Shown: one piece after another, positions 391-54,809 of the stretch
Layout of the letters: the number at the start of each line of letters is the position of its first letter
How positions within the stretch are numbered: the first letter of the stretch is position 1
From: Flavobacterium enshiense DK69
GTDB taxonomy: Bacteria; Bacteroidota; Bacteroidia; Flavobacteriales; Flavobacteriaceae
Assembly (NCBI RefSeq): GCF_000498495.1
Contig: NZ_AVCS01000015.1
Coordinates: 248,001 to 312,000, forward strand
Direction of reading: 5' to 3'
DNA length: 64,000 nucleotides
Made by a program: the position numbers and the translations under genes
The notes under the pieces: generated by a model
What the model saw: only the letters and a program-made list of their open reading frames with translations
Database searches by the model: none
What the model was told of the DNA's origin: nothing

Positions 391-3300
391 ATGAGGACCT
401 ATTACTTGTTATTAGTGAGCGTTTTGAGTATAGTGAGCACTTATACTTCGAATGCACAGGGCAACCCGCAGTTACAGTGGGTTTTTAATGCGGTAAATAC
501 AGCGGTATGGGGAGGTGGCAGCTATGGGAGCAGTATAGCAGTCGATGCCTTAGGTAACCGTTATGTTGCGGGGAGTTTTCAGGGAACCGCCGATTTTGAT
601 CCTTCTGATGCTACGGCTAATCTGACTTCGGTCGGGAGTACCGATGCATTTATTGCCAAATATGACAGCAACGGCAACTACCTTTGGGCGAAAGCTTTTG
701 GGGGTGCTTCGGGTGAATCCGTTAATTCAATAGCCTTAAGCAGTATTGGGGAGCTTTATGTCACGGGGTATTTTTACGATACTGCCGATTTTGATCCTTC
801 GGTCGCCAAGGCTAAATTAACTTCAGTAGGAGATGGCGATATTTTCATTGCGAAATACGACAGCAGTGGCAATTATCTTTGGGCAAAAGCGATGGGGGGA
901 CCAGGTTATGATCAAGGTGATTCTGTTGCGGTTAATAGTAGCGGTGAGGCATATATCACGGGGTATTTTGTGGATACAGTCGATTTTGACCCTTCAGCTG
1001 CCACGGCCAATTTGATTTCGGCAGGACAGGCTGATATTTTCATTGCGAAATACAGCAGCAGTGGTAGTTACATTTGGGCGAAACGTATAGGGGGTACAGA
1101 AAATGATGTAGGTAATTCGATAGCCTTAAACAGCAGTGGTCAGGTACTTATCACAGGGTATTTTCAAAATACAGTCGATTTTGACCCTTCGTCTGCCACG
1201 GCCAATCTGACCTCGGCAGGAAGTGGAGATATTTTTATTGCGAAATACGACGGTAACGGCAACTACCTTTGGGCGAATGCGGTAAGGGGAACAGGTTATG
1301 AACAAGGTGATGCTATTGCTGTAAATAGCATCGGGGAGATATATGTCACAGGTCTTTTTCAAAATACAGTCGATTTTAATCCTTCTGCTGCTACAGCCAA
1401 TCTGACCTCGGCCGGAATGGAAGATATCTTTATTGCAAAATACGATAGTAATGGCAGCTACCTTTGGGCGAAAGCTATGGGAGGGCCTGGAAGTGACAGG
1501 GGAGAATCTCTAGCGTTAAACGGTAGTGGGGAGGTTCATGTTACCGGATCTTTTCAAGGTACTGTTGATTTTGATCCTTCGGCTGCGGTGGCTAATTTTA
1601 CTTCTGTAGATAGCAGTCGTGATATTTTTATTGCGAAATACGGAACCAATGGCACCTACCTCTGGGCGGGAGCAATGGGAGGGATGTATGACGAAGGAGG
1701 TTCTTCTCTGGTAGTAGACAATAGTGGTCGGGTGAGTGCCACGGGTTATTTTGTCGGAACTGTCGATTTTGACCCCTCACCGGGAACGGCTAATTTAACA
1801 TCCGGTCAAGGAGATTGTTTTGTTTTGGCTTATACATCATCCGGCAGTTATAATAATGCATTGGCTATAGGAGGGTATTCGGTCTATAATTTTCACGGAG
1901 AAGGGAAAAGTGTGGCCACGGATGCTTTTGGGAATGTTTATGTTGCAGGTACTTTTCAGGGTACGGTCGATTTTGATCCATCAGCAAGTACTGCCTATTG
2001 GACTTCAGCAGGAATTGACGATATCTTCATTGCTAAATATGACAGCAGTGGAAACTATCTTTGGTCGAAAGCCATTGGCGGGACAAGCCATGAAAATGTT
2101 GCTTCTCTAGTGGTAAACAGCAGTGGGGAGGTGTACATTACGGGGTATTTTAGCCCGATTGTCGATTTTGACCCTTCGCCCGCCGTAGCCAATTTGAATT
2201 CGTCGGGAGGTATGGATATTTTTATTGCGAAATACGACAGCAACGGGAACTATATTTGGGCGAAAGCAATAGGAGGACCTGATGGTGATACAGGTGTCTA
2301 TTCTATGGCCATCAATAACAGTGGTGAGTTGTATATCACCGGAATTTTTATTGGAAATATAGATTTTGATCCTTCAGGGGCTGTAGTCTTTCTGCCAGCC
2401 CATTCGGTTAGCGATACCTTTATTGCCAAATACGACAGTAACGGCAATTACCTTTGGGTAAAAGGCATTGGAGGGCCGGAGGGTGATATTGTGGCATCCA
2501 TTACGTTAAACAGTAGTGGTCAGGTATACATCACGGGATATTTTGCAGATACTTCCGATTTTGATCCTTCTCCCAACGTTGCCAATTTGACTTCGGCCGG
2601 GAATTTTGATATTTTCCTAGCCAAATACGACAGCAATGGTAATTACCTTTGGGCGAAAGCGATGGGGGGAACAGGTTATGATATATGTGATGCTGTTGTT
2701 GTAAATAGCAGTGGGGAGGCATATATCACAGGGACTTTTTCTGCTACAGCCGATTTTAACCCTTCGACAGCCACAGCTACTTTGACCCCAGTAGGAGGAG
2801 GTGGGAATTTGTTTATTGCGAAGTACGATAACAATGGTAATTACATCTGGGCGAAAGCCATAGAAGTTATAAAAAATGCATTCTTCGAGACCCCCAGTTC
2901 CCTTGCGTTAAACAATAATGGTGATATGTATATTGCCGGTATGTTTCAAGGGACTGGTGATTTTGATCCTTCAGCTGCGACGGTCAATTTCACCTCTGTA
3001 GGTAGAAGCAGGGATATTTTCATTGCGAAATACAGTAATAGTGGTAACTTCCTTTTGGGGAAGAGTATAGGAGGAGCAGGTTATGATAATGTTAAATCCC
3101 TTGTGATGAGAAACAACGATCAGATGTATGTCACAGGGAGTTTTCAAAATACATGCGATTTTGAACCTTCAAATGCAAGCGGCAGCTTGACTACGTTAAA
3201 CAGTGGAGACATGTTCCTGGCTAAGTATCTTGAATGTAATGCTGTTACAACACCAACAATAACACTAATAGGTACTACCTTAACCGCAAATGGGCAAGCA

Positions 3301-3708
3301 GGTAATTACCAATGGGTTGATTGTAGTAATGGGAATGAACCTGTACCAGGGGCAATAGGTCCGTCTTTTACCCCTGCTGTACCCGGAAATTATGCCGTAA
3401 TTTTAACGGTTGGAGGTTGTGCAAGTATTTCGGCTTGTCAAACGGTATTGAGCATTCATGAAGAGGAAATGGCGTCAATAGTGTTATATCCAAACCCAAC
3501 AACAGGTAACTTTACTGTCAGCTGGGCTGATGCGTTGGAATCGGCAGAGATTGTCGTTACCGATATCATGGGTAAAACTATCAAAACAATGCTGTGCCAA
3601 GGACAGCAGGAAGCAAGGCTTTCTCTGGATGGCGCTGCAAAAGGCATCTACTTCGTTCGTTTACAGAGCGGGCAGAAAACCAAACAGTTTAAACTGGTTA
3701 AAAAATAG
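391..3708 (+). CDS. Secreted SBBP-repeat beta-propeller protein with T9SS sorting domain (copy 1)
   Basis: The 1105-residue protein has a signal peptide (about 1-22, ending SNA|Q). It then has about fourteen repeats of roughly 65 residues carrying 'TVDFDPSAATANLTS', 'DIFIAKYDSNGNYLWAKA' and 'SSGEVYITGYF'. These match SBBP (seven-bladed beta-propeller) repeats. A Cys-containing Ig-like stretch follows near 950-1025, then a type A T9SS C-terminal domain starting at 'LYPNPTTGNF' and ending 'KQFKLVKK'. The protein is expected to cross the outer membrane by T9SS and be released or anchored at the surface; ligand and role are unknown. The next gene is a close full-length paralog, so this is a tandem duplication. 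The acidic DFDP motif in each repeat could bind calcium, but that is inference. Confidence 0.85.
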   Translation: MRTYYLLLVSVLSIVSTYTSNAQGNPQLQWVFNAVNTAVWGGGSYGSSIAVDALGNRYVAGSFQGTADFDPSDATANLTSVGSTDAFIAKYDSNGNYLWAKAFGGASGESVNSIALSSIGELYVTGYFYDTADFDPSVAKAKLTSVGDGDIFIAKYDSSGNYLWAKAMGGPGYDQGDSVAVNSSGEAYITGYFVDTVDFDPSAATANLISAGQADIFIAKYSSSGSYIWAKRIGGTENDVGNSIALNSSGQVLITGYFQNTVDFDPSSATANLTSAGSGDIFIAKYDGNGNYLWANAVRGTGYEQGDAIAVNSIGEIYVTGLFQNTVDFNPSAATANLTSAGMEDIFIAKYDSNGSYLWAKAMGGPGSDRGESLALNGSGEVHVTGSFQGTVDFDPSAAVANFTSVDSSRDIFIAKYGTNGTYLWAGAMGGMYDEGGSSLVVDNSGRVSATGYFVGTVDFDPSPGTANLTSGQGDCFVLAYTSSGSYNNALAIGGYSVYNFHGEGKSVATDAFGNVYVAGTFQGTVDFDPSASTAYWTSAGIDDIFIAKYDSSGNYLWSKAIGGTSHENVASLVVNSSGEVYITGYFSPIVDFDPSPAVANLNSSGGMDIFIAKYDSNGNYIWAKAIGGPDGDTGVYSMAINNSGELYITGIFIGNIDFDPSGAVVFLPAHSVSDTFIAKYDSNGNYLWVKGIGGPEGDIVASITLNSSGQVYITGYFADTSDFDPSPNVANLTSAGNFDIFLAKYDSNGNYLWAKAMGGTGYDICDAVVVNSSGEAYITGTFSATADFNPSTATATLTPVGGGGNLFIAKYDNNGNYIWAKAIEVIKNAFFETPSSLALNNNGDMYIAGMFQGTGDFDPSAATVNFTSVGRSRDIFIAKYSNSGNFLLGKSIGGAGYDNVKSLVMRNNDQMYVTGSFQNTCDFEPSNASGSLTTLNSGDMFLAKYLECNAVTTPTITLIGTTLTANGQAGNYQWVDCSNGNEPVPGAIGPSFTPAVPGNYAVILTVGGCASISACQTVLSIHEEEMASIVLYPNPTTGNFTVSWADALESAEIVVTDIMGKTIKTMLCQGQQEARLSLDGAAKGIYFVRLQSGQKTKQFKLVKK

Positions 3709-3733
3709 TATTGTTTTTCATGTTTTTTAAAAG

Positions 3734-3765
3734 AAGGTCTTTCCATATTGGGAAGGCCTTTTTTG
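3734..3765 (+). terminator. Rho-independent terminator after SBBP copy 1
   Basis: An 11-bp stem with G-U pairs (AAGGTCTTTCC with GGGAAGGCCTT), loop ATATT, then a T run. The rest of 3709-4017 holds only AT-rich DNA, a small inverted repeat near 3819-3838 and the promoter below. Confidence 0.75.
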
Positions 3766-3985
3766 ATTTTAAGAAATAGATAAGTAGCTTCGGGAACCTC
3801 AGTCACCCGCTGTTCGACCCTTTAACAGGTTCAGGGTACTAGTCAGGCATTGCTTTTCACATTTTTACCCTTCAACTTCCAATTCCCAAACCGTAGCACA
3901 TAACTTATAATTTGTAATCCTCATTCGTGTTTTATATCTATAATCTTTAATTGATTGATTTTAAAGGTTTTACATTGTTAATTCA

Positions 3986-3993
3986 TAACTTTG
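3986..3993 (+). promoter_or_regulatory. -7 element of SBBP copy 2
   Basis: TAACTTTG is an exact TAnnTTTG match 24 bases before the start codon, the same spacing as in copy 1. No TTG lies at the usual 19-20 nt spacing. Confidence 0.45.
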
Positions 3994-4017
3994 TATGAGA
4001 CCTAAAATGATTATGAG

Positions 4018-7000
4018 ATGAAGAAGTATTACTTGTTATTGGTATGTGTTTTGGGCTTGGGAAACTTTTTCCCTTCAAATGCACAGGTCAACCCACAGTT
4101 ACAGTGGGTTTTTAATGCGGCAAATACGGCTATATGGGGAGGTACGAACTTTGGAAGATGTATTGCTGTCGATGCCTCGGGTAATCGTTATGTAGCTGGA
4201 TATTTTCAGGGAACTGCCGATTTTGACCCTTCGGTAGGCACAGCCAACCTGACTGCGGTAGGTTGGGGAGATATTTTCATTGCGAAATACGACAGTAATG
4301 GTAAATATCTTTGGGCGAAAGCTTTTGGTGGGGGGTTGGATGATTCTGCTATTTCAATAGCCTTAAACAACAATGGGGAGGTGTATGTTACTGGTTTTTT
4401 TTCGGCAACTGCCGACTTTGATCCTTCAGCTGCCACGGCCAATTTAACTTCAACTGGAAATGAAGATATTTTCATAGCAAAATACGACAGTAACGGCAAC
4501 TATATTTGGGCGAAGGCTTTTGGGGGGACCAATAGTGATTATGTTAATTCGATTGTCGTAAACACCGATGGGGAGGTGTACCTCACAGGGTCTTTTTGGG
4601 ATACTGCCGATTTTGATCCTTCAGTTGCCACGGCCAATCTAACTTCGGCTGGATATGACGATATTTTCATCGCAAAATACAGTAGCAGCGGTAGTTACAT
4701 TTGGGTCAAAGGTATAGGAGGGACAGGATTTGATGCTAGTAATGACATAACCTTGAACAGCAGTGGAGAGGTACATATTACGGGATATTTTTCAAATACG
4801 GTTGATTTTGATCCTTCTGCCTCTACGGCCAATTTAACTTCAGCTGAGTATAGTGATATTTTTATTGCGAAATACACCAACAACGGCAGTTACCTTTGGG
4901 CAAAAGCTATGGGGGGGGCTGCCAGTGATTCGGCGCGTTCTCTTGTTGTAAACAGCATTGGTGAGGTATATATTACGGGAGATTTTTCAAATACAGTTGA
5001 TTTTGATCCTTCTGCCGCTACGGCCAATTTAACTTCAGCTGGGTATAATGATATTTTTATTGCGAAATACACCAATAACGGCAGTTACCTTTGGGCGAAA
5101 GCTATGGGCGGGTTCGAAAGTGATTTGGGCTTTTCCCTTGCCGTAAACAGCAGTGGGGAAGTAATCATTACGGGAACTTTTTCATGGACAGTTGATTTTG
5201 ACCCTTCGGCTGCCACCTCTACTCTGACCTCAGTGAATCAAAGCAGAGATATTTTTATTGCGAAATACAACAGTAACGGCGGTTACCTTTGGGCGGCAGG
5301 TATGGGAGGGGAATGTGACGAAAGCGGTTTTTCTGTGGTAGTAGACAATAACGGTCGGATTAGTGCCACGGGGGATTTTTGCGGGACTGCGGATTTTGAT
5401 CCTTCAGCGGGAACGGCCAATTTAACAACTGGAGGTGGTTTGAATTGTTTTGTTTCAACCTATACTACATCGGGCAGTTACATAAATGCATTTGCTATAG
5501 GAGGATATTCAAGTAATAGTTTTAGAGGACAAGGAAATTGTATGGCCAAAGATGCTTTTGGGAATGTTTATGTTGCCGGTATTTTCTATGGTACGGTTGA
5601 TTTTGATCCATCAGCAAATACGGCCTATTGGACTTCTGCCGGATCTCGAGATATTTTCATTGCGAAATATGACAGCAACGGAAACTATCTTTGGTCGAAA
5701 GCTGTTGCAGGACCGGGTTTTGACAATGTTGGGTCGCTCGTGGTAAATAGTGGTGGGGAGGTGTATATAACGGGTTATTTTGATCAGATTGCCGATTTTG
5801 ATCCTTCGGCCGCCGTGGCCAATTTGAACTCATCAGGAAGGAGCGATATTTTCATTGCAAAATACGACAGTAACGGGAACTATCTGTGGGCGAAAGCCAT
5901 TGGAGGGCCCGATGCTGACCTAGGTGTCCATTCTATGGCTGCCAACAGCAGTGGGGAGCTATATCTCACAGGAGTTGGTGGTTCTATTGGGAATATAGAT
6001 TTTGATCCTTCGGGAGCTACAGCGTATCTTTCTCAAACTTTTTCTTTTTCTGATATATTTATTGCGAAATATGATAGTAACGGCAACTATCTTTGGGTAA
6101 AATCCATTGTAGGATCAAGGTATGATCGTGTGGCGAACCTCGCGGTAAACAGTAGTGGTCAAGTATACATTACGGGATCTTTTGAGGAAACTGCTGATTT
6201 TGATCCTTCGGCAAATGTTGCCAATTTAACTTCTGTTGGAGTTTTCGATATTTTCATTGCCAAATACGACAGCAGTGGTAATTACCTTTGGGCAAAAGCA
6301 GTGGGCGGAACAGGTAATGATATGGTCAATTTCATTGCTGTGAACGGCAGTGGAGACTTGTATGTAACGGGGTATTTTGCCAGTACAGTCGATTTTGATC
6401 CTTCGGCTGCCACAGCTAATTTGACATCAGAAGGAGTGTCAAATGTATTTCTTGCGAAATACAATAGTAGCGGTAATTATATTTGGGCAAAAGCTCTGGG
6501 AGTGATAGATCATGAGTTTGATTTAGATTATACCCGCAATTCCCTTGCACTAAACAGTGGAGGGGAGGTGTATATGGCCGGGATGTTTCGAGGGACCGAC
6601 GATTTTGATCCGTCTGCAGCAGTGGCCAATTTCACTTCGGTTGGGAGTGACGATATTTTCATAGCGAAATACAGCAGTAGTGGTAATTACCTTTGGGCGA
6701 AAGCTGTTGGGGGAGGAGGTCAAGATGGTGCTACTGCCCTTGTGGTGAACGATAAGCAGGTGTATGTTACGGGGGAATTTGAAGGTACATGCGATTTTGA
6801 ACCTTCAAATACAAGCGGTAGTCTGACTACGTTGGGTTCTGGGGACATGTTCCTGGCTAAGTATCTTGAGTGCACTACCACTACGATACCTACAATAACG
6901 CTAACAGGTACTACCTTGACTTCAAACAGTACTGCAGATGTATATCAGTGGATTGATTGTAATAACGGAAATACACCGGTTCCAAACGCAACAAGCCAGT

Positions 7001-52382: not shown

Positions 52383-53789
52383 ATGAAAAAGTCATTTACT
52401 TCCTTAAAATTGTTATTATTCGTAGGATTAATAACATTATTTTCCTGCCGGCAAGAGGAAATACCCACCACTTCATTATCTGAAGAAGTAAACAGCGAAA
52501 AGTTTCAAAACAAAAATACAAGTCCGGAAATGGTATTGCGTTGGAATGAAGCTGCCACCTATGTAGTGTTGCAAACCCAGGTAGCAGTCCCCAACCCACC
52601 CATTCCGCCATTTATTGAAAGCCGCTATTATGCCATGGTAAATGTGGCCATGCATGATGCACTGAACAATATTGTGCCTAAATACAAGACATTGGCCCTG
52701 AAAAATTCAAGAGATAAAGATGCAGACCCCAATGCGGCAGTGGCCCAAGCAGCACATGATGTAATCGCCTATTTCTTTGGTAAATTAAACCCGCCTGCTA
52801 TGGTTACTCCACAGCCGGTGCAGGATTATATCAATAACCTACTCATCCAATCTTTGAATTCCATTGCAGACGGTGAAGCAAAAACAAAAGGCATTGCATT
52901 GGGAGCAGCAGCAGCACAAGCTATTATTCAAAACCGAAGCAATGATGGCTCAGCCAATGTTATGTTTCCTGTAACTGAAGGAACACAACCGGGTCAATAT
53001 CGTTTTTATTTCCCGTTTACCATTCCCCCATTTGAGCTTCCTCCACCGTTCCAGGGTTTTTATGATTCTCCGGGCTGGGGCGACATCAGCACTTTTGGCA
53101 TTCAGAACAGTACACAGTTTTCTGTACCTGCACCATACACTGTAAACAGTGCTAATTACACTGCCGATTATAATGAAGTAAAAAGATTGGGCTGTGCAAA
53201 CTGCACGGGTATAAACGGGCGTACATCCGACCAGGAAGATATTGCCCGGTTCTGGGTGGAAAGCTCCCCTTACGGATGGAATAAAATTGCAAGAACAATC
53301 ATTGCTCAAAAAAATATGAATGCTTGGAAAGTGGCAAGAGTACTGGCTTTGTTACAAATGACAGAAGCCGATGCGTATACCGCCTGCCTGAAAGCAAAAA
53401 TGATTCACTTTTTCTGGAGGCCGGTAACCGCTATAAACCTTGGAAACAATGATGGCAATCCAAACACAGTTGGTGATCCCGATTGGCAGGTACTGGTGTT
53501 TCCCACACCGCCGGTTGCCGATCATCCATCGGCACATGCAACCGCCGGCGGCGCTGCTGCAGAATTATTGAAACAGGTTTTTGAGAAGGATAATTTTAGT
53601 TTTGCAGCGCAAAGCACTACGCTGCCCAATAAAACCCGAAATTTTGGCAGTTTATCACAGGCAGCAAGAGAAAATTCTTTATCGAGGATTTATGTGGGGT
53701 ATCATTTCCGCAAAGCTTGTATGGATGGTGAGGCTTTAGGCAATAGCATTGGCAAGTGGATTGCGACCCATTCATTGGCAGAAAATTAA
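52383..53789 (+). CDS. Vanadium-dependent haloperoxidase-like lipoprotein (PAP2 superfamily)
   Basis: 468 residues. A lipoprotein signal ends at 'ITLFSC' (Cys about 23). An all-alpha domain follows with the conserved phosphate/vanadate-binding motifs 'KAKMIHFFWRPVTAINLG', 'VADHPSAHATAGGAAAELL' and 'SLSRIYVGYHFRKACMDGEA'. PSAH replaces the more usual PSGH. The family includes chloroperoxidases and acid phosphatases; the reaction (halide oxidation or phosphatase) cannot be decided by eye. 'CANCTG' near 270 suggests a disulfide or metal pair. It has no operon partner and lies between REP-like repeats, so recent acquisition is possible. Confidence 0.8.
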   Translation: MKKSFTSLKLLLFVGLITLFSCRQEEIPTTSLSEEVNSEKFQNKNTSPEMVLRWNEAATYVVLQTQVAVPNPPIPPFIESRYYAMVNVAMHDALNNIVPKYKTLALKNSRDKDADPNAAVAQAAHDVIAYFFGKLNPPAMVTPQPVQDYINNLLIQSLNSIADGEAKTKGIALGAAAAQAIIQNRSNDGSANVMFPVTEGTQPGQYRFYFPFTIPPFELPPPFQGFYDSPGWGDISTFGIQNSTQFSVPAPYTVNSANYTADYNEVKRLGCANCTGINGRTSDQEDIARFWVESSPYGWNKIARTIIAQKNMNAWKVARVLALLQMTEADAYTACLKAKMIHFFWRPVTAINLGNNDGNPNTVGDPDWQVLVFPTPPVADHPSAHATAGGAAAELLKQVFEKDNFSFAAQSTTLPNKTRNFGSLSQAARENSLSRIYVGYHFRKACMDGEALGNSIGKWIATHSLAEN

Positions 53790-53957: not shown

Positions 53958-54089
53958 TATCTGGTAATCCCCGCTTGCATGAGAATCTCGCTCGTGTCTT
54001 CAATTTAATTCCCGATTATGCCCCTCAATCTAATTCAAATCTATTTCTGCGACTGTACCTGCTCGTGTTATTTTGAAATTTTAGTAGTG

Positions 54090-54404
54090 TATTTTCATTT
54101 CTAGAAAGTTTGTATCTACATCTAGCGAGTTTGTTTTGGTATCTAGGGACTTTGTTTTTGGTTCGAGGGATTTTGTTTTTAGTTCGATGGACTTTATTTT
54201 GGTATCTAGCGACTTTATTTTTAGTTCGAGGGACTTTATTTCGGTATCTAACGACTTTATTTTTGGTTGAAGCGACTTTGTTTTTATTTCTAACGACTTT
54301 GTTTCTGTATCTAATGACTGTGTTTCTGCATCTAACGACTGTGTTTTGGTATCTAACGACTTTATTTTTATTAAAAGCGACTTTCTTTTTACATCTAAAG
54401 AGTT
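54090..54404. repeat. Tandem array of fifteen 21-nt units
   Basis: Fifteen degenerate units of exactly 21 bases with no indels, for example 54132-54152 (TGTTTTGGTATCTAGGGACT + T) and 54342-54362 (TGTTTTGGTATCTAACGACT + T). Each has a T tract, a TCTAnnGA or TCGAGGGA core and a GACTT end. Period 21 leaves frames open: the minus strand is open for 119 codons (54081-54437) as heptads such as KSLDTKT, but it has no ATG start. The array ends 60 bases before the XRE gene. No spacers, so it is not a CRISPR. Confidence 0.8.
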
Positions 54405-54464: not shown

Positions 54465-54809
54465 ATGCTATTCTTCAATTTCGCCCGAATCTTTAAACTT
54501 AAAGGCATCAATCGACCTTTCTCTTATTTAACATCCACAGGCTATTCCGCCAATTATGCCACAAAGCTCACCAAAAACAGGGTAATGGAAATCAACCTCG
54601 AACGATTAGAGAAATTCTGCCGCGATTTTAACTGCACGCCCAATGATATCCTCGATTTCCGTCCCTATCAAAACGATACGATTCCCAACGATCACGTCTT
54701 GCACACATTAACCAAAAAAGAAATTTCAAACGAGATTACGTCCAAAATAAATGCGCTTCCCCTCGAGAAAATTCAGCAAATCCATGACATCATTAAAAAT
54801 ATGGAGTAA
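54465..54809 (+). CDS. XRE-family HTH regulator
   Basis: 114 residues. A Cro/C1-type helix-turn-helix occupies about 25-68 ('GYSANYATKLTKNRVMEINL', 'LEKFCRDFNCTPNDILDFRP'), close to the HTH_26 subfamily. A helical C-terminal tail ('EKIQQIHDIIKNME') may dimerise. There is no sensor domain. It lies between the 21-nt array and the radical SAM gene. Its stop codon overlaps the radical SAM -7 element, so it could control its neighbour or itself. Target sites are unproven. Confidence 0.85.
   Translation: MLFFNFARIFKLKGINRPFSYLTSTGYSANYATKLTKNRVMEINLERLEKFCRDFNCTPNDILDFRPYQNDTIPNDHVLHTLTKKEISNEITSKINALPLEKIQQIHDIIKNME

Follow-up and report, generated by a model that had tools for sequence, protein, structure and literature searches.

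Upstream of a gene for an XRE regulator in Flavobacterium enshiense DK69, a short sequence is repeated in tandem, and its units vary in their bases while keeping a length of 21 nt. This raises the question of what holds the period constant and to which of the neighbouring genes the array belongs. The initial annotation, made from the letters of the window (the whole stretch of 64,000 nt that was analysed), offered several readings: a multi-operator array for the XRE protein, a curved nucleoid-type site or the remnant of a coiled-coil gene on the minus strand.

The array and its neighbouring genes

The array consists of about 15 imperfect units (Table 1), which agrees with the 15 units of 21 nt each that had been annotated at 54090–54404. 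When read in the register GANTTTRTTT plus 11 nt, 16 loose units are found, beginning at position 54085, and 13 contiguous units from position 54127 hold at least seven of the eight core bases. The distance between the cores of successive units is 21 throughout; one additional core match falls within a unit (6+15), and all other core spacings in the array are 21. TRF reports a period of 21, and also of 63, in gapped alignments with 5 and 3% indels. As the spacing of the unit cores does not bear these indels out, we discounted them, and the claim that the array contains no indel holds despite the gapped alignment. The best 150 bp reach an identity of 0.75 at lag 21, whereas the runner-up lag has 0.43. 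Not one of 200 Markov resamples matches the value of 0.75 at any of 29 lags; the array is thus beyond chance.

Table 1. Coordinates of the array and the adjoining genes in the window.
Feature	Start	End	Strand	Remarks
21 bp tandem array, about 15 units	54093	54409	+	Delimited by autocorrelation; consensus near TATCTAGCGACTTTGTTTTTG; in-register core units 54127–54399
Gap between array and XRE start, 55 bp	54410	54464	+	Leader, putative promoter
XRE regulator, 114 aa	54465	54809	+	HTH_26 (Pfam PF13443), E 3.8e-9, residues 25–66; C-terminal extension with two predicted helices (84–96, 100–113)
Radical SAM protein, 729 aa	54833	57022	+	Starts 23 bp after the XRE gene; adjoins it in the closest orthologues only

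Measured to the ATG at 54465, the array had been placed 60 bp upstream of the XRE gene; from the autocorrelation we obtained 55 bp. This gap resembles that of the F. limnosediminis orthologue. The XRE protein belongs to HTH_26, which is its sole Pfam match (37.1 bits, with a gathering cutoff of 22). In a structure model with a mean pLDDT of 70.2, the HTH part comprises helices at residues 6–12, 18–24, 29–36, 45–54 and 59–62, and a low-confidence linker (residues 65–82) precedes the two C-terminal helices. A Foldseek search with this model gave no match at E<=0.001. SinR, DdrO and SaPI2 Stl resemble the protein by weak fold or profile matches; the match to the SaPI2 Stl structures is confined to the HTH part.

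The downstream gene had been described as a B12-binding radical SAM gene whose promoter overlaps the XRE stop. We find its radical SAM assignment supported, whereas the B12 part has only NCBIfam matches to B12-radical SAM families, all of them below the cutoff. The overlapping promoter is unsupported: the short gap between the two genes looks like that of an operon, and the radical SAM gene is probably co-transcribed with XRE.

Two further features of the window should be mentioned. A vanadium-chloroperoxidase-like gene (52383–53789; VCPO_N just above the cutoff) precedes the array and is absent at the orthologous site of F. limnosediminis. In addition, TRF detects tandem repeats of 195 bp at 591–5207, which are perhaps coding, as their period is a multiple of three.

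Arrays upstream of XRE genes in other genomes

In F. limnosediminis JC2902, the XRE and radical SAM proteins are 96 and 92% identical to those of the window, and a 13-unit array lies in the same place; its spacing is always 21 and its unit types are partly different from those of the window. The XRE gene of F. amniphilum KYPY10 (63% identity) is also found behind a 21 bp array with a quite different unit. This array, being unlike the window type, escaped the unit-based searches. The XRE–radical SAM locus of F. amniphilum occurs in two copies, on contigs C2 and C54 (L128 and L146), with identical scores; this duplicate is possibly assembly redundancy, and 6% contamination is listed. Tandem repeats of 7 bp occur by two XRE loci: ATAACTC (6.9 copies) abuts the array at L128 1118–1165, and ACTGAAC (8.7 copies) lies on the opposite side of the XRE gene from the array at L139 148–208.

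We gathered XRE loci in Flavobacterium and other Bacteroidota by protein profile alone, with no repeat criterion. Of 398 Flavobacterium genomes, 20 gave homologues with a three-protein XRE profile (E<=1e-18). A profile of 20 sequences, applied to 395 genomes from across the phylum, picked up seven with homologues (E<=1e-17), of which two were already known. Among 16 further genomes behind repeat loci, which had been chosen for their repeats, XRE was found in two (E<=1e-8). The other 14 had no XRE at this threshold; many of these genomes are incomplete MAGs, and some of the repeats are coding or unrelated. This search was entered by 17 of 25 repeat loci, the others coming from genomes already covered. 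In one genome (G013) there are three further XRE paralogues, and every one of them has an array of its own upstream. The survey thus comprises the homologues above the thresholds plus three weaker ones from one genome. Since dispersed copies lie away from XRE genes, the arrays could be taken for a scattered family with no tie to XRE, a view that the XRE-centred search overturned.

Of the 32 distinct loci, 31 have lag 21 as the top one among lags 12–40 in the 450 bp upstream of XRE. In 28 loci it also exceeds all 200 randomised maxima, with the lag test and the array finder tuned on these same data. The set of 32 leaves out L146, whose upstream result is the same as that of L128; the start codons of L122 and L123 are uncertain, and the start of L134 was placed by extrapolation. 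Four loci did not exceed every resample (L136, L134, L147 and L150). L136 has an intact XRE gene with about 80 bp of intergenic DNA and no array. L147 is weak, with periods of 42 and 84 instead of 21, and L150 is weak as well.

The controls gave a different picture. Among 57 upstream regions of other ORFs, lag 21 is on top in four; a single one reached 0.5, which is the F. limnosediminis array seen from its other flank, and the remaining three are at 0.43 or below. Downstream of XRE, 21 is the top lag in one of 25 regions, with a maximum of 0.42. For viral HTH_26 loci, 21 is on top in two of 18 (identical results, 0.42, z about 3); these controls are mostly short proteins without the C-terminal extension, four (190–199 aa) are of another HTH kind and two begin inside the match.

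The expectation that such arrays always neighbour HTH and radical SAM genes is therefore borne out for the HTH gene (31/32 loci) and not for the radical SAM gene. The latter lies just downstream in 10 of the 22 loci of the Flavobacterium XRE search, all of them closest orthologues, as judged from up to about 1.5 kb downstream of each (L139 ends soon after XRE); L128 and L146, both among the 22, yield identical results here. On comparative grounds, the array goes with the XRE gene and not with the XRE–radical SAM pair. Drift of the unit length among relatives, which would have spoken against a meaningful period, is not the rule: lag 21 is kept on top at the same 31 loci. The conserved position upstream of XRE lends strong comparative support to the candidate multi-operator array for the XRE protein.

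XRE-linked arrays have a median length of 10.8 units (range 4.2–21.2; 30 arrays, excluding L134 and L136, as in the frame analysis and the Mantel test below). They end close to the gene: the median distance to the start codon is 27.5 bp, with 22 of the 30 loci within 60 bp and 14 within 20 bp. An exact TAnnTTTG, which we take to be the Bacteroidetes -7 box, occurs within 80 bp of the start in nine of these loci compared to 6% of shuffles, which is suggestive and not general.

Unit sequence, protein sequence and register

The unit sequences differ widely between loci, from TCCAGTTTTAACAACATCATT to AGTGTCCGTCCATAGGGCAAT. Nevertheless, unit similarity correlates with XRE identity (Mantel rho 0.485, 0/5000 permutations; 25 loci, 300 pairs), and for the 295 pairs under 60% XRE identity rho is 0.37. 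The correlation is found on the XRE strand alone, with a rho of 0.03 for the reverse complement. Furthermore, circular alignment of 29 unit profiles (L120 left out) yields a weak shared motif near TAnnTnTTACnACTTTATTT, at 0.246 compared to 0.169 (sd 0.006) in 25 shuffled sets. From the covariation on one strand and the weak motif, the arrays appear to have been inherited along with the proteins, their orientation being kept. The unit correlates no better with the recognition-helix region than with the C-terminus (partial r 0.26 vs 0.31), which suggests that part of the correlation comes from gene and array having descended together.

We then considered the register of the units. In a phase test of 290 units in 28 arrays, 11 units favour another phase by more than 3 bits. 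All of them are one-unit offsets; seven lie at array ends (one in L134), and four are inner units, in L131, L132 and L172, after which the array returns to phase. Two loci contain a damaged XRE gene. In L134, the gene has three stops and the array is short with a one-base register shift. In L173, the gene has one in-frame stop and the array is still register-true, which weakens the argument from L134 that the spacing lasts only while the protein lives. A long 21 bp array in a Cyclobacteriaceae MAG (L071 2257–2600) has a unit whose sequence changes gradually from one end to the other and alternates with a period of 42, like a frozen record of drift in which the spacing stayed constant.

Within the unit, we found no 7 bp or 10 bp substructure, as the profile autocorrelation is near zero at every shift. 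A palindromic operator was considered and rejected: the units lack dyad symmetry, with a similarity to their own reverse complement of 0.371 compared to 0.382 for column-shuffled units (z -0.6). The proposed curved nucleoid-type site found no support either, since the A/T content of 26 unit profiles has no 10.5 bp harmonic (z 0.0). A 3.5 bp harmonic in the A/T content is present in these XRE-linked profiles (z 3.3).

Dispersed arrays

The dispersed copies are the least explained part of our observations. The genome studied here contains two more arrays, on C9 and C21, with no XRE homologue in the surrounding 12 kb. Among 27 XRE-array profiles, their units are closest to the window array (0.85 and 0.75), and the two arrays may be further binding sites or titration sinks. 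F. amniphilum has three dispersed arrays that are like the window type and unlike its own XRE array (0.30–0.35). The dispersed arrays in L070 and L071 do not match the local XRE array (0.19 and 0.21). Arrays with the same core were also found in seven other Bacteroidota genomes; XRE was undetected in five of these, and in the other two it lies behind its own, different 21 bp array. The sample of dispersed arrays is biased, as it was searched with the window-type unit pattern only.

The five dispersed arrays of Flavobacterium lie between genes, three of them between convergent genes and two between genes on the same strand. At the site orthologous to C21, F. limnosediminis has no array, but the neighbouring genes are duplicated there, which makes the boundary hard to place. 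The C9 site of F. limnosediminis is interrupted by about 6 kb of other DNA. The C21 array (L003 1440–1820) is flanked by two near-identical terminator-like hairpins, and the F. limnosediminis site has one hairpin and no array. Furthermore, the Tannerella MAG Im510_bin93 contains three arrays (L069, L076 and L082) with a common unit near GAGTTTGTTTCAAACACACGT, with no XRE homologue detected.

A putative operator and its alternatives

Taking the comparison together, we consider it probable that the array is a multi-seat, autoregulatory operator of the adjoining XRE gene, on which the protein would assemble cooperatively and head-to-tail. This reading builds on the conserved placement upstream of XRE, the fixed period, the orientation on one strand, the covariation of unit and protein and the weak shared motif. 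From these features, we infer binding of the units by XRE, in a cooperative manner and with a repressive effect. Each 21 bp unit, equal to two helical turns, would form one asymmetric docking site. Protomers or dimers of XRE, linked via their C-terminal helices, would bind side by side, all facing the same way, over a stretch of about 300 bp that reaches the promoter. The XRE gene would thereby be autoregulated cooperatively, and so would the downstream radical SAM gene in this clade. Under this model the letters of the unit may drift together with the protein, whereas selection would keep the spacing, since adjacent protein units have to make contact along a single face of the helix. Since the units are asymmetric, share one orientation and end a median of 27.5 bp before the start codon, head-to-tail assembly of XRE is the simplest model. 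Several observations count against the operator reading: the units lack palindromy, while most XRE operators are palindromic; L136 has an intact XRE gene and no array, and L147 and L150 are weak; the array of L173 keeps its register behind a damaged gene; the dispersed arrays of F. amniphilum, L070 and L071 do not match the local XRE array; 14 of the 16 genomes chosen for repeats gave no XRE; and the unit does not correlate best with the recognition helix.

The alternatives differ in how they account for the period. If the array were a coiled-coil gene on the minus strand, or its remnant, then 21 nt would encode one heptad. The annotated open frame of 119 codons on the minus strand, with no start codon listed, is real, and the frame that reads KSLDTKT has only four stops in seven window-type arrays, 90 units in all. 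In addition, when the phylum was scanned with the Flavobacterium unit profile, the single other genome with a match, a weak one, had it in a heptad-coding gene (G685). Column shuffles, however, lead one to expect 4.5 stops, so that the openness of the KSLDTKT frame follows from composition. In a different frame, open in the window, 13 units of one F. amniphilum array contain 11 stops. Some frame is open throughout in nine of the 30 XRE-linked arrays, whereas the other 21 are closed in all six frames. The coiled-coil reading is thus refuted as a general explanation, and we regard its chances as close to nil. The array could also be an ordinary minisatellite that arose by neutral slippage or unequal exchange and lies beside the gene by chance. 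The number of units does vary between orthologues (16 loose units vs 13), and the higher-order periods of 42 and 63 point to turnover by block duplication. Neutral copying would leave unexplained, however, why the period of 21 is found at 31 of 32 XRE loci of diverse sequence and why the units covary with the XRE protein on one strand. A minisatellite of this kind is therefore very improbable.

Two further readings assign a function to the repeat. It might act as RNA, either as the 5' leader of XRE or as small RNAs of 21 nt units. Where the array ends at most 20 bp from the start codon (14/30 loci), part of it may be transcribed, and its orientation to the gene is constant. The window array, the only one that was folded, is nevertheless less stable as RNA than its shuffles (z +2.4 and +2.6 on the two strands), which led us to reject a structured RNA for this array. 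Rfam gave no match above the gathering score, with only a chance snoRNA match far below it, and the unit profiles have no internal symmetry. We thus consider an RNA function quite unlikely. XRE and the arrays could instead serve the organisation, segregation or titration of DNA, as an iteron- or centromere-like element in which the array is a nucleation strip and its position at a promoter is secondary. This would fit the length of the arrays, as well as the occurrence of the same unit in dispersed arrays that follow gene ends or separate convergent genes. According to the ORF listings, the neighbours of XRE differ between lineages, and the module thus seems to stand alone. On the other hand, the sporadic presence of XRE (20/398 Flavobacterium genomes) speaks against a housekeeping role on the chromosome, and neither the array nor the XRE had a match in the plasmid and phage collections; the array lies in a 429 kb contig of a draft assembly. 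Such an element is, in our view, unlikely.

The autoregulatory operator can be extended, more speculatively, to a stand-alone module that is found across the phylum. It would consist of a small HTH_26 protein, extended at its C-terminus by helices, and a drifting 21 bp array, on which the protein might polymerise over almost any letters as long as the pitch is two turns. Fast co-evolution would then give each lineage a private code, and the dispersed arrays could be seeded sinks or boundaries between convergent genes. We regard this extension as possible and somewhat doubtful.

A defined protein family together with a cis array, in which the spacing is conserved and the sequence is free, makes the co-evolution of protein and operator testable across many natural pairs, to which the three paralogous XRE–array pairs in one genome add. 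Furthermore, such natural multi-site operators could show how the number of repeats tunes expression, and they would offer a reason based on function for why some bacterial minisatellites keep a fixed period.

Comparison with known systems

A regulator with a direct-repeat operator is known; the length of the array, its strict period and its linkage to the gene across the phylum are apparently undescribed in the open-licence literature. In that literature, from which subscription papers and preprints largely fall out, we found no account of 21 bp arrays tied to an HTH gene. The window XRE shares its kind of DNA-binding domain (HTH_26, PF13443) with Cro/CI-type XRE repressors. The known repressors of this type have one or a few operators, which are usually palindromic.

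Plasmid iterons and the heptad arrays of omega-type parS are tandem direct repeats upstream of the gene for the protein that binds them; repeat and protein co-evolve, and extra copies titrate the protein. Similarly, the arrays described here are direct repeats upstream of the XRE gene, with XRE as the predicted binder. Iterons and omega-type parS are systems of plasmid replication or partition, whereas the window array is located in a 429 kb contig and has no plasmid or phage match.

BldC of Streptomyces is a small HTH regulator that oligomerises asymmetrically, head to tail, on direct, non-palindromic repeats; these vary in number, and its sites differ in length (PMC5859096). The repeats found here are likewise tandem, direct and variable in number and lie upstream of a gene, and XRE would bind to them. 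BldC differs in its MerR-like winged helix and in its 9 bp sites, for which the assays of that study give two to four subunits, whereas here an XRE/HTH_26 protein is combined with 4–21 units of 21 bp. A conserved long array before its own gene, as for XRE, does not appear in the parts of the BldC study drawn on here (PMC5859096).

A survey of prokaryote satellites reports that scattered non-coding satellite families are rare, and none is tied to a regulator gene in the portion of the survey that we draw on (PMC6749651). The arrays described here resemble those satellites in that several arrays of one unit are scattered in one genome. They differ from the satellites in that portion in two respects: different lineages have the period in common and not the sequence, and the array is linked to a gene.
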